Source: Dehalococcoidia bacterium (GTDB lineage: Bacteria > Chloroflexota > Dehalococcoidia > GIF9 > AB-539-J10). From it: a stretch of 34,374 bases of DNA. Numbering within the stretch: position 1 is the stretch's first letter; each line of letters opens with the position of its first letter. A program made the position numbers and the translations under genes. The stretch lies in contig JAGGZD010000121.1 of assembly GCA_021162245.1 (NCBI GenBank), positions 1 to 34,374 of the forward strand. Direction: 5' to 3'. The notes below the pieces were generated by a model. That model worked only from the letters and a program-made list of their open reading frames with translations. It was not told where the DNA came from and did not search any database. This document shows positions 14,236 through 27,751 of this stretch, one piece after another.

Positions 14236-15340
14236 ATGCAGGAAGAAAAAGAACACCTGGAAATACTACGTCGCCACATTTCAGATATAATGGTGCATCT
14301 TTGACATTTCAGGAAAAGAAAAGGAGATTGCCAGAGTAGAGGCAGAATCAGCTGGGCCGAATTTTTGGCAGGATACAGGCAAGGCTCAAGCTATTATGTG
14401 CCACCTCAGAGCGGAGCAGAGTCTAGTTTCTAGTTGGCGTGAGATAGAGAGACAGGTCACTGATCTCTGTGAGATGGTTGATCTGGCTATTGAGGAAGAC
14501 GATCATTCTCTTGAGGAAGAGGTGCAGCAAGAACTGCAGAAAATAACTGCTCAGTTCGAACGATTAGAGAATCAATTAGTTCTTAGCGGCGAGTATGATA
14601 CCAGGAATGCCATAGTAGCTTTTCATGCTGGCGCGGGAGGTACAGAATCTCAGGATTGGACCAGTATGTTGCTCAGGATGTATCTACGATGGGTAGAGAG
14701 ACATAACTACCATAGCGAAATTTTGGATGTCTCTCCTGGCGAAGAAGCGGGTATCAAGAGTGCCATTATAGAAATTAAAGGAGATCATGCTTATGGCTAT
14801 CTTAAATGTGAACATGGTGTCCATAGGTTGGTTCGTATTTCTCCTTTTGACGCCGACCATGCCAGGCATACCTCTTTTGCTATGGTGGAGGTTCTTCCCG
14901 AAGCAGATAAGGAACTGGATATTCAAATCAACCAGGAGGATTTGAGAATAGATACTTTCAGGTCCAGCGGCCCTGGAGGGCAACATATGCAGAAAACAAG
15001 CAGTGCTGTCAGAATAACCCACTTGCCTACAGGGCTAACATCTTCCTGCCAGGGTGAGAGATCACAGCACCAGAACAAAGAAGTTGCTTTAAAAATACTT
15101 TATACGCGTCTTCTTGAGTTAGAGCGGGAGAATAGGAAAAAGGAAAAAGCCAGGCTCAAGGGTGAACAGGTCAAAGTTGAGTGGGGAAATCAAATTAGAA
15201 GCTATGTCATTCATCCATACAAGATGGTGAAGGATCACCGCACTGGCTGTGAGACCAGCAATGCTGAAGCTGTGTTGGATGGTGATTTGGATAAGTTTAT
15301 CACTGCTTATCTCCGTTCCAAAGTAGGCGAAAAGAAATGA
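14236..15340 (+). CDS. prfB: Peptide chain release factor 2, programmed +1 frameshift at CTT TGA C (14299-14305)
   Basis: ATG 14236 behind AAAAGGAG opens 22 codons ending CTT TGA C; a +1 shift at 14303 continues DISGKEKEIARVEAESAGPNFWQDTGKAQAI into the 14396 ORF; SPF and GGQ motifs present. Confidence 0.93.
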
Positions 15341-23662: not shown

Positions 23663-24772
23663 TCACTGGAAGAATAGATTCTTGGGATAGGTAGTTAGCA
23701 TTTTTGCCCCGGATTCTGTTATTGCTACGGTATCTTCCAACCTGATACCAAGGTTTTGTTTCGCCCGTATCGAGCCCTGAAATAAAGCTATGACCATATC
23801 CTTCTCAATCTTGGAATCTGAGCCTGCTGCGGTAGATGACTCCAAGTAGGGATGCTCTTCAACTTGCAGGCCAATATTATGTCCTACATGAGCTAGCAGT
23901 CGATAGCCAGTAGCTTTTGTAGCTTCTTCGGCTACAATTTGAACTTCTCCAGTGGTTATGCCAGGACGGAGCTGTTGCAAAACTGTGTCCTGTGCAATGC
24001 GGAAGGCATTAAAGGCATCTTTTAATTCTGTGCTTGGTTTACCAACGACGGCGGTCCGTGCTATATCTGAACAGTAGCCATTGTAGACTGCACCCAAATC
24101 TATCGTAACCAAATCTCCATTTTCTATTTGTTTCTGAGTTGCCCAGGCGTGGGGAAGTTTAGTCCGTGGTCCAGAAGCTAGAATAGTGGGGTGTTTCAAC
24201 CGGTCAGATCCCAGCGTTAGCATATGGTGCTCTGCCAGAGATGCAACTTGAAGTTCTGTCATACCCGGCTTCAGAGATTCCAGAGCAATTTTCATCCCTT
24301 CATCTGCAATTGCACAAGCTTTTTGGATAAAGCTGATTTCCTCCTCAGTCTTCACCGATCTTAAACCCTCTGCTTCCTCAGTAACATTTACAAGTTCGAT
24401 GTTTGATGACGATCGTCTCAAAGAATTCCCTAACACTTCAAGGGAAATATCATCCATGCCAATTTTCCCTTTCGTGACGCCGAGGTCTTTGAGTGTTTTA
24501 ATTATTATTGTGCCTTGAGTGTACCCAGTGTATGCTTTAATATCAACGTCTTTCGCTTGTTTTCGCGCGAATTCCTCATCGAGCCAGAGCACTGCTAATG
24601 CTGGCCGACTCCGCTGAGTAACTATAAGAACACTACATGCATGTACACTGGGCTCTGTCACATCTGTAAGATACTGTATGTTCTCAGCTGCAGACAATAC
24701 CAGTGCTTCGTAGCCGCTGTCCCTTATCAGCTTTTGAGCTCTCTCGCGTCTTTGTGCAATTTCGCTGTCCAT
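23663..24772 (-). CDS. M24 family metallopeptidase (Xaa-Pro peptidase)
   Basis: VTIDLGAVYNGYCSDIARTAVVG, HVGHNIGLQVEEHPYL, VIALFQGSIRAKQNLGIRLEDTVAITESGA. Confidence 0.9.
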   Translation of the reverse strand: MDSEIAQRRERAQKLIRDSGYEALVLSAAENIQYLTDVTEPSVHACSVLIVTQRSRPALAVLWLDEEFARKQAKDVDIKAYTGYTQGTIIIKTLKDLGVTKGKIGMDDISLEVLGNSLRRSSSNIELVNVTEEAEGLRSVKTEEEISFIQKACAIADEGMKIALESLKPGMTELQVASLAEHHMLTLGSDRLKHPTILASGPRTKLPHAWATQKQIENGDLVTIDLGAVYNGYCSDIARTAVVGKPSTELKDAFNAFRIAQDTVLQQLRPGITTGEVQIVAEEATKATGYRLLAHVGHNIGLQVEEHPYLESSTAAGSDSKIEKDMVIALFQGSIRAKQNLGIRLEDTVAITESGAKMLTTYPKNLFFQ

Positions 24773-24812: not shown

Positions 24813-25988
24813 TCACAATGTGGGCAGTTCCTTGCCCACATCAGCCAGCGATTGAATTTTTCTGTGGCTTTCTTCTATTTGACCTTTATGCTCCTGTCCA
24901 TATTTAACAGCTTTCTCATAAAGGTCCTTGATTTTAGGCACGGAAGAGAGTTGAGATACTATCAAGGTGATATCAATGAAATGTTTTTCACCAGGGAAGT
25001 CGCCGCCTCTGATTAAAGCAGTGGGCGACATCTCTTTGATATAATCGCTAATGCTTTTGACCATGTCCATGTTCATTTCCTTGGCTGGCCCAGATATAAT
25101 ATATGTAATTCTGGCAGCTTCACCAGGGTCACAGCTAATAGATAGATCAGATAGTGTAGCGTCCAGAGCCTGAGAACCCCGAAAGCTTTCCACAGCCTTC
25201 TCGTGGAAGTTTTTCTTTTTTATTTCCCAGGGGAAACGAAATGACGGCAGCGGAGTTCTCCCAATTCCAATAGCTGTCCAGCCTTCCAATGTGGCAATAA
25301 TATCTCCTGCATCTACAGTTCTGGAGCCCACAAATTTGCGTTTAGTTATTTCACCAGCGCACATCAAGTCGTAGAAGGGCTCGGCAATATGTCGGTTTAT
25401 CTTCTCTATGTTGTTAGCCAGACTGGCGTCTTTTCTAACATACCTCTGGTTATCAGCCAGGAAAACAGCATCAGCTATATCATATACCGATTTGAGACAG
25501 GTGCCCGTATTGTATACGCTTCTGGTCTCACTGCTAATCTCATGCTCAAACGGCAATACAATAAGGGCATAAATCGGTTTGTTGAGATACCTCTCCTTAA
25601 TCATCTGAGCAATCACAGGTAATGCACCTGAGCCAGTGCCACCAGCAGCACCACCAATGAGCAAAAAAGCATGTGTTTCATAAAATGTTGGTTCTGCCTT
25701 TATAGCATCCATTACCTTGTCACCATCTTCCCTGGCCAATTGAGCACCTATTTCGTTTATCTTGCCCACACCATGCCCCAATGTCTGGCGCAACCCGATG
25801 AGTATACTATGCATATAGTCCTTCTTGATAAACCTCAATCCGGTTAAATCTGCCTGGTCACTGTTCACAGCGACTATATCTGGCGCTATGGTCGCCCTGC
25901 GCTCAGTTTGTGCCTTGAGATTAAGCCTGGCGAACTGATCAGCAATACGGCAACCACACTGTCCTAACCCGATAACTGTTAGTTTCAT
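24813..25988 (-). CDS. Divergent tubulin/FtsZ-superfamily GTPase
   Basis: N-terminal VIGLGQCGCRIAD, tubulin T4 signature GGAAGGTGSGALP; low resemblance to canonical FtsZ. Confidence 0.8.
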   Translation of the reverse strand: MKLTVIGLGQCGCRIADQFARLNLKAQTERRATIAPDIVAVNSDQADLTGLRFIKKDYMHSILIGLRQTLGHGVGKINEIGAQLAREDGDKVMDAIKAEPTFYETHAFLLIGGAAGGTGSGALPVIAQMIKERYLNKPIYALIVLPFEHEISSETRSVYNTGTCLKSVYDIADAVFLADNQRYVRKDASLANNIEKINRHIAEPFYDLMCAGEITKRKFVGSRTVDAGDIIATLEGWTAIGIGRTPLPSFRFPWEIKKKNFHEKAVESFRGSQALDATLSDLSISCDPGEAARITYIISGPAKEMNMDMVKSISDYIKEMSPTALIRGGDFPGEKHFIDITLIVSQLSSVPKIKDLYEKAVKYGQEHKGQIEESHRKIQSLADVGKELPTL

Positions 25989-26038
25989 TTTAATCCTCCT
26001 CGTTTAATATACTTTACATAAAGTAACATACATTCTGG

Positions 26039-26077: not shown

Positions 26078-27751
26078 TTAATCATAAGATCCTCTTCTTC
26101 TGATGAGGAGATAAACTAGAGCGCCAATGAGCACTGCTATTAAAGAAGCAATAGATATAAGCGCCCAGAAGGGCAACAGCCCGGTTTTGAAGGAATGAAC
26201 AACGCTCCATACGGATTCATTTTGAGCATTATCAACTGCTTTTACCCTCCAATAGTAGGTGCCATAAAATAAAGCACTATTTTCAGGGAGAGTATAACTA
26301 ACTGTATTTACTCCTGAAGCGGAAGTCAGTTCTGCCACTGCTAAATTCCGGGAAAATAATGTAGCTTCCGTAGTAAAATTTTCGCTACTGGCTATTTGCA
26401 AGCAATAATAGTTAATCCCACTGTCGTCCACTACGCTTTGCCATTCGAATGCAGGGGTAAATTTCCTGCCTATTACAGAGCCGACCCTTTCCTCAGCGGT
26501 TGGAGATGTGAGAACAGGGGCAGCTGGTGCAACTGATTCCATGGTGAAGTTTTCGCTACGTTCGTCAGAGCCACAAGTGGCTTTTACTATGTGATTCCCA
26601 TGTGTTCCTGTAGCCTCAAAGCTTACGCCTGAGAAGCTGCCATTGCTCTGGGTAGTTCTGCTACCCATGGTCACTCCATCATAAGTGATAATTACTGACG
26701 TGTTCTTGGGGAAGCCACTGCCGCTGACGGATAAAGTTGTTCCCACATGCCCCTGGGTAGGAGATAATGTTAATCCGGGCACTATCTCAAATTCCACTTC
26801 TTCAATATCGTCTTTATCAGTATGGCTACCCTCGGCCGTTATATCATATTTACCTTTGGCAAGTTGAGGCACATCAAAGGTCTCCTCCCAGCAACCATCA
26901 TCATCAGCCTCGATGCCACTGACTATCGTGTCATTATCGAACAGTATTTTAATGTTTATTTCGTCTTCCGCAAATCCGTTGCCTGTTACCGTTACAGCCT
27001 CGCCATGTGAGCCACTTTCCGGATCCACGCTTATACCCGGCATTACCTGAAAGGTAGCTTCCTCGACATCCTTCTCGTCAGTATCATGACCCTCGGCTGA
27101 AATGTCATGCTTACCCTTGGTAACAGTGGGCACCTCAAAAGTTCCCTCCCATGTGCCATATTCATTTGCTTCAAATTGTTCGTCTGATACCACATCGCCC
27201 TCGAACAATATATCGATATCCTCTTCATCTTCAGCAAACCCGGTGCCTTTCACCGTGACTTCGATTCCCGTTGCCCCTTTGGCATCATCGGGGTCATCTA
27301 TTTCATCGCCTGCTACCTCTATTATTTCCACTTTTGGTTTTACAGTGAAGTCCTTTGAGTATTTTTCATCGTCTTCAACATCATCATCATCATCCACTGA
27401 ACTTCCCAGGTCTTTATCGCAAATCGTGATTGTGTGTTTCCCACTGCAGCTCTCTGGGATGAGGAATTTATCGTCCTTGGTGCTGTAGTCATAGTCTTCC
27501 GTATTCGATTCAAACTCAAAATCACGGTCCTCCAGCACCTCTACCCATTCGTTGGTATCCAGCTGGTAGTAAACCCAGTAATCATCATGTCTCTCGCATG
27601 AGCCCGTGATATACACTTCCTCCCCAACAGTGCCACTGCTTGGATGTAGCGACATACTGGTGATATCAGCAGCTTGCACAGGTGTAGCCATTGCAGGAAT
27701 GGCAATAATGCAGGCAAGTAAAGCAATAAGCAGCCGAGATAGTAATTTCAT
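26078..27751 (-). CDS. Modular acidic surface protein: signal peptide, about four IPT/TIG-like domains, FN3-like domain, C-terminal TM and RRR tail
   Basis: Signal peptide to VQAA; repeated P-GxxxxPxxGxxGxxVTVTGxGF modules; AFEWQSVVDDSGINYYCLQIASS...YYWRVKAVDNAQNESVWS; terminal LLPFWALISIASLIAVLIGALVYLLIRRR. Confidence 0.8.
   Translation of the reverse strand: MKLLSRLLIALLACIIAIPAMATPVQAADITSMSLHPSSGTVGEEVYITGSCERHDDYWVYYQLDTNEWVEVLEDRDFEFESNTEDYDYSTKDDKFLIPESCSGKHTITICDKDLGSSVDDDDDVEDDEKYSKDFTVKPKVEIIEVAGDEIDDPDDAKGATGIEVTVKGTGFAEDEEDIDILFEGDVVSDEQFEANEYGTWEGTFEVPTVTKGKHDISAEGHDTDEKDVEEATFQVMPGISVDPESGSHGEAVTVTGNGFAEDEINIKILFDNDTIVSGIEADDDGCWEETFDVPQLAKGKYDITAEGSHTDKDDIEEVEFEIVPGLTLSPTQGHVGTTLSVSGSGFPKNTSVIITYDGVTMGSRTTQSNGSFSGVSFEATGTHGNHIVKATCGSDERSENFTMESVAPAAPVLTSPTAEERVGSVIGRKFTPAFEWQSVVDDSGINYYCLQIASSENFTTEATLFSRNLAVAELTSASGVNTVSYTLPENSALFYGTYYWRVKAVDNAQNESVWSVVHSFKTGLLPFWALISIASLIAVLIGALVYLLIRRRGSYD

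Follow-up and report, generated by a model that had tools for sequence, protein, structure and literature searches.

Among tubulin-superfamily GTPases, the CetZ type is best known as a shaper of archaeal cells. A study of Haloferax CetZ1, which functions in motility and in the development of rod-shaped cells, calls CetZ archaea-specific (PMC11621097). An earlier survey (Santana-Molina et al. 2023, PMC9871819) refers, in one clause of its accessible text, to CetZ-like sequences of Chloroflexota-Dehalococcoidia forming sparse paraphyletic groups, which are very probably the same group as the protein described here. For these sequences, the accessible part of that text is silent on paralogues, partners, any C-terminal motif and murein; the present analysis adds how the paralogues are structured, which partners are dedicated to them, the tail motif and how CetZ relates to the loss of murein. 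Full-text literature searches, with subscription journals mostly outside their coverage, returned no dedicated study of Dehalococcoidia CetZ. The Dehalococcoidales have lost the dcw cluster and have an S-layer-like envelope (PMC10608941), and the genes reported below bear on how such wall-less, S-layer-type bacteria, for example Dehalococcoides, keep their shape without murein or MreB.

The window, that is the whole stretch of 34,374 nucleotides analysed, corresponds to contig C14 in the 1.49-Mb draft genome of an uncultured Dehalococcoidia bacterium (Chloroflexota); the publicly named genomes nearest to it are Dehalococcoidia MAGs. The protein under study, named CetZ-A (paralogue A; Table 1), matched the Pfam GTPase domain at E=7e-31, and its ORF was unbroken in 25 other genomes of the same order at 57-87% identity, indicating a real, selected gene. 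The initial annotation had read a GxGQC-type start and a GGTGSG signature from the letters, and both were located, GLGQCG at residues 7-12 and GGTGSG at residues 116-121, where the FtsZ of the host has GGGTGTG instead. It had also described a locus without ftsA, mur or min neighbours, with a surface protein and an M24 peptidase on the same strand; both of these neighbours were found, and nothing recognisable as ftsA, mur or min turned up among the window's ORFs, about half of which were scanned with Pfam and the others judged by reading. The peptidase gene is possibly co-transcribed with CetZ-A. As a functional partner the peptidase was rejected, because the neighbourhood is not conserved: among the relatives, the M24 cluster was the downstream neighbour of A only in L024. 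The window further contains prfB (release factor 2, 14298-15340); its CTTTGAC site for programmed +1 frameshifting is the customary one, so that the gene is ordinary. A terminase-like ORF (Terminase_6C), absent from the window, is convergent to CetZ-A in many relatives (L025:3867-5291, L027:9427-10896, L029:1204-2637, L053, L055, L056, L066 and L070); these loci are without obvious other phage genes, and several have a small neighbouring ORF.

Table 1. Features of the CetZ-A locus, in positions of the window
Feature	Position	Strand	Basis and remarks
CetZ-A (paralogue A), CetZ-like tubulin-superfamily GTPase, 391 aa	24813..25988	(-)	Pfam, Foldseek, order-wide conservation; ORF with exactly these limits, ATG start
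Ribosome-binding site GGAGG of CetZ-A	25995..25999	(-)	Sequence; 6 nt 5' of the ATG
T1 loop GLGQCG, residues 7-12	25953..25970	(-)	Alignments; CetZ type GxGQxG (FtsZ, GxGGxG)
T3 loop GHGVGKINE, residues 71-79	25752..25778	(-)	Invariant in 34 relatives
T4 signature GAAGGTGSG, residues 113-121	25626..25652	(-)	Residues 116-121 invariant in 34 relatives
T7 loop (GTP hydrolysis) DAGD, residues 226-229	25302..25313	(-)	Invariant in 34 relatives
C-terminal peptide ELPTL, residues 387-391, FtsZ-CTP-like	24816..24830	(-)	After a variable linker
TIG/Ig-like surface protein, 557 aa	26078..27751	(-)	Pfam TIG 7.8e-13; directly upstream of CetZ-A
Signal peptide of the surface protein, residues 1-28	27668..27751	(-)	MKLLSRLLIALLACIIAIPAMATPVQAA, read by eye; relatives start similarly
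Transmembrane segment near the C terminus of the surface protein, roughly residues 528-550	26102..26170	(-)	By eye; layout common to relatives
M24 metallopeptidase	23663..24772	(-)	Pfam Peptidase_M24 1.6e-53; 40 bp downstream of CetZ-A

A non-canonical family of the superfamily, unlike FtsZ, had been proposed in the initial annotation, and the profile and structure comparisons identify that family as CetZ. CetZ-A scored 108 bits with Pfam Tubulin (cut-off 33) and, beside this GTPase domain, 69.4 bits with CetZ_C (cut-off 21.6), whereas it remained under the Pfam cut-off of 27 with Tubulin_2, the 'FtsZ-like' group of Makarova and Koonin (20.3 bits), and far under that of the FtsZ equivalog TIGR00065 (55 bits, cut-off 295.2). 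No Pfam FtsZ_C domain was matched in CetZ-A, while the host's own FtsZ has one. The solved structures nearest by sequence were Haloferax CetZ1/CetZ2 (profile E 1.1e-59) and Methanosaeta CetZ. A Foldseek search with the AlphaFold model (pLDDT 79.9, pTM 0.81) returned CetZ1 (4b46) as top match (E 2.8e-34, TM 0.77 by query and 0.90 by target); ranks 1-4 were occupied by CetZ1, CetZ2 and Methanosaeta CetZ, and FtsZ started at rank 5. These comparisons place CetZ-A within CetZ, broadly defined, as a bacterial branch of that family. A divergent FtsZ orthologue was ruled out by the equivalog score, the missing FtsZ_C domain and a separate ftsA-ftsZ locus: the canonical ftsZ, whose possible presence elsewhere in the genome had been raised at the outset, lies on contig C4 in the order mraZ-rsmH-ftsA-ftsZ-nrdR, in which all genes but ftsZ were named by reading their sequences. 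Dehalococcoidales without the dcw cluster are reported to have this gene order (PMC10608941). The host genome therefore holds three tubulin-superfamily genes, namely CetZ-A, paralogue B (contig C122, 49% identity to CetZ-A) and ftsZ.

The fold is also common to TubZ (2xka, Foldseek rank 36), another bacterial relative of tubulin, but a DNA-segregation filament of that type is very improbable: CetZ-A is nearer to CetZ in both sequence and structure, it is chromosomal in a conserved housekeeping neighbourhood, and no TubR-like small gene was recognised beside it. Since the phage collection gave no match and the plasmid collection only haloarchaeal CetZ-like proteins, an origin of CetZ-A from TubZ, phages or plasmids was rejected.

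A loss of GTP-binding residues, which the initial annotation had weighed against its own proposal, was not found, the nucleotide-binding and T7-loop residues being kept (Table 1). The T3 motif GHGVG is common to CetZ-A and archaeal CetZ, whereas FtsZ has GLGAG. In T7, the DAGD of CetZ-A keeps both Asp residues of FtsZ DFAD, in contrast to the DxSE, mostly DSSE, of haloarchaeal CetZ; the haloarchaeal DxxE is thus absent from CetZ-A, although DxxE is not known to define the whole CetZ family. A tail peptide like [D/E/G]-[I/L]-P-x-L, found in A, B and most relatives, ends 61 of the 65 main-clade proteins (shuffled tails, mean 0.5, maximum 4), and P389 and L391 of CetZ-A are invariant in the alignment of relatives. 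The form [D/E]-[I/L]-P-x-L resembles the FtsZ tail peptide (the host FtsZ tail is LDVPSFLRR), while the sampled haloarchaeal CetZ mostly end in ExxLF-like motifs.

These traits bear on the main rival to a role in envelope or shape, according to which A and B are second division proteins that form auxiliary rings with FtsZ in cytokinesis, like the paired archaeal FtsZ1/FtsZ2. We regard it as rather unlikely. The tail peptide and the FtsZ-like Asp in the T7 DxxD of the main clade argue for it, as does the coexistence of canonical FtsZ with the two paralogues, which makes three tubulin-superfamily proteins in a murein-less cell; yet the fold and sequence are CetZ-like, none of the loci read placed a CetZ gene next to ftsA or any other division gene, and three incomplete genomes (G001, G018 and G019) show an FtsZ-level match alone, with no CetZ match.

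The conserved partner of A is the surface protein, whereas the M24 peptidase mostly is not. In every contig that could be judged (n = 15/15), the gene directly 5' of A, in the same orientation, encodes a TIG/Ig surface protein with a signal peptide and a C-terminal transmembrane helix; set aside from this count were three contigs that were too short, L036 (short opposite ORF between the genes) and L070 (206-aa ORF between them), the latter two carrying the same surface protein one ORF further away. The gaps ranged from 19 to 363 bp, with six of the 15 at 50 bp or less, and several spacers contain little beyond the ribosome-binding site. Searching whole genomes of the window's family (threshold E<1e-60, some of the genomes incomplete) recovered the surface protein in 15/15 genomes with A and in 0/10 without it. 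This pairing of genes shows shared regulation or function, not contact. By eye, the surface protein has a signal peptide, about 500 aa outside, a transmembrane helix and the short basic tail RRRGSYD; with a cytoplasmic tail of only about 7 residues, direct binding to CetZ-A is doubtful. A shared regulatory element in the spacer was considered and rejected, as the inverted repeat of the window was not visible in relatives and spacers are as short as 19-50 bp; promoter and terminator scans gave results near background. The spacer of one relative (L031:1717-2079) contains a broken copy of the CetZ gene start, a small partial duplication. In a Dehalogenimonas-like genome, a 1597-aa Ig/FG-GAP/MBG surface protein is located 135 bp upstream of another CetZ paralogue (L095:3751-8544); here CetZ may have been paired with a surface protein a second time, independently.

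Paralogue B was found tail-to-tail (convergent) with two genes, c3 (about 126-188 aa) and c1 (425-910 aa), whose Ala/Glu-rich products are putative coiled coils, as judged by composition and repeat pattern; Pfam gave nothing on the c1 of the host and nothing above cut-off on its c3. Genome-wide searches detected c1 in 13/14 genomes with B and 0/27 without B, and c3 in 14/14 and 1/27 (a weak match), respectively. In uncultured Dehalococcoidales the order is gap, B, c3, c1, second CetZ, dnaX, ybaB and recR, with the coiled-coil pair between two CetZ genes. At another locus (L109:13899-18576) a TIG-domain protein (807 aa) adjoins c1 near a CetZ gene, which brings A-type and B-type partners together. 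A third paralogue, B', adjoins the AMMECR1 gene with a gap of -4 to 180 bp where measured (L053:13587-14690, L054:10525-11625, L055:7762-8880, L056:4953-6107, L064:9137-10246, L065:8416-9525 and L069:8325-9443). Its T4 loop has become GSLGSG-like, its T7 loop mostly has Gly in place of Asp, and the C-terminal peptide is missing, so that B' is probably a GTPase-dead CetZ.

Phylogenetic conclusions were drawn from a careful tree of 45 proteins, whose outgroup was FtsZ without tubulin, TubZ or artubulin, and a quick 92-row tree was set aside for its long-branch rows. The 43 CetZ-like rows split from FtsZ at 100/100; as FtsZ is the sole outgroup and long branches meet at the root, the tree gives no count of CetZ entries into bacteria. 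A grouped with B' (99/99), and B from many families formed one clade (100/98). Haloarchaeal CetZ were joined at 98/96 by a second, archaeal-type CetZ of other Dehalococcoidia; the main bacterial set fell outside this group. The archaeal type (CetZ_C about 108-138 bits) occurs in families f14, f35 and f50 as well as in genus g8, which belongs to the window's family but has neither A nor B (L067:8495-9553, L071:964-2097, L073:1423-2535, L075:1435-2535, L076:1450-2553 and L080:1450-2559). Compared with the sparse paraphyletic groups named in the accessible text of PMC9871819, the sequences here comprise a main bacterial set with strongly supported subclades and an archaeal-type set.

Family f16 includes complete genomes of 1.4-2.1 Mb with 18-38 reductive-dehalogenase matches, which we infer to be Dehalococcoides and Dehalogenimonas. 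In D. mccartyi 195, ftsZ (DET0343) adjoins ftsA (DET0342), and the FtsZ annotation is given to DET0589 and DET0636 as well (PMC5102406); DET0589 adjoins the GAPDH gene DET0590, in an operon with enolase DET0593 (PMC3986231). As this order matches a gap-CetZ locus in a Dehalococcoides-like genome (L091), DET0589 is very probably a CetZ, by gene order rather than sequence comparison; taking DET0636 as the orthologue of B is guesswork by elimination. Naming is at stake as well: expression studies call DET0589, and probably also DET0636, cell-division FtsZ. Transcripts of these two genes have been linked to hydrogenase and Fdh-like genes (PMC5102406), which suits a further reading, that the filaments are a metabolic or secretory scaffold localising enzymes or surface-system assembly, the gene neighbours reflecting general co-regulation rather than shape. 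Paralogues adjoining gap-dnaX-ybaB-recR or AMMECR1-AmrS point the same way, and such roles have been suggested for archaeal CetZ (Brown and Duggin 2023, PMC9856176). Those neighbours, however, vary by paralogue, whereas the surface protein (for A) and the coiled coils (for B) track presence and absence genome-wide, and we consider a scaffold unlikely.

CetZ_C was detected in 66 of the 294 Dehalococcoidia genomes, so that CetZ is not restricted to archaea; in a 251-genome sample of the phylum it occurred only in the class Dehalococcoidia. This challenges the archaea-specific statement and offers an independent bacterial system for probing CetZ filament function. FtsW/RodA was present in 135/294 genomes, and the two hardly overlapped (both, n = 1; CetZ only, n = 65; FtsW only, n = 134; neither, n = 94; Fisher 9e-20), although these counts overstate independence because the genomes are related and the pattern follows a few clades, and the Fisher value is no count of independent events. 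CetZ is not a requirement of life without FtsW, as the 94 genomes with neither show. The two occur together in G257 alone (C2:402-1445), where the FtsW match is near a contig end; this may be contamination or a genuine exception. The MreB model matched weakly in the CetZ genomes (about 1e-9 to 1e-19 in those read), while most FtsW genomes were below 1e-80; the weak matches are read as putative cross-matches to DnaK/FtsA-type proteins. Neither FtsW/RodA nor true MreB was found in the lineage of CetZ-A, and no peptidoglycan-wall genes were detected in the host bacterium.

The conserved pair of CetZ-A and surface protein suggests a role in the envelope or shape of this wall-less bacterium. We favour, by a modest balance of probability, a CetZ-type GTPase whose GTP-driven filaments under the membrane, tethered by the tail through an adaptor, organise the surface layer or cell shape, while FtsZ keeps division. 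CetZ-A would bind GTP and form FtsZ/CetZ-like protofilaments beneath the cytoplasmic membrane; its C-terminal peptide may dock an adaptor, FtsA or another protein, and so tether them there; and the filaments would place or brace the co-expressed surface protein, thereby shaping the S-layer-like envelope. Paralogue B may do related work with its coiled-coil partners, and the division role would stay with the canonical FtsZ. More tentatively, an order without peptidoglycan may have exchanged the murein/MreB shape system for at least two CetZ paralogues, one in an operon with a surface protein and one with dedicated coiled coils, a possibility about which we have more doubt than belief. To our knowledge, a filament-to-surface-layer system of this kind has not been described in any bacterium. 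The CetZ paralogues and their partners are named candidate genes, also in the cultured Dehalococcoides and Dehalogenimonas, where they are apparently annotated as FtsZ.

Among the known systems, TubZ has the superfamily fold in common with CetZ-A, but is plasmid- or phage-borne with TubR, and CetZ-A is closer to CetZ. FtsZ resembles CetZ-A in the GTPase domain, the T7 Asp residues and the tail peptide, whereas CetZ-A is without the FtsZ_C domain, falls under the equivalog cut-off and lies outside a division cluster, without division-cluster neighbours. With CetZ1 and CetZ2 of Haloferax volcanii (4b46 and 4b45) it shares the Tubulin and CetZ_C domains and the GxGQxG, GHGVG and GGxGSG loops; it differs from them in its bacterial host, in an identity of about 30%, in extra inserts and in its gene partners.
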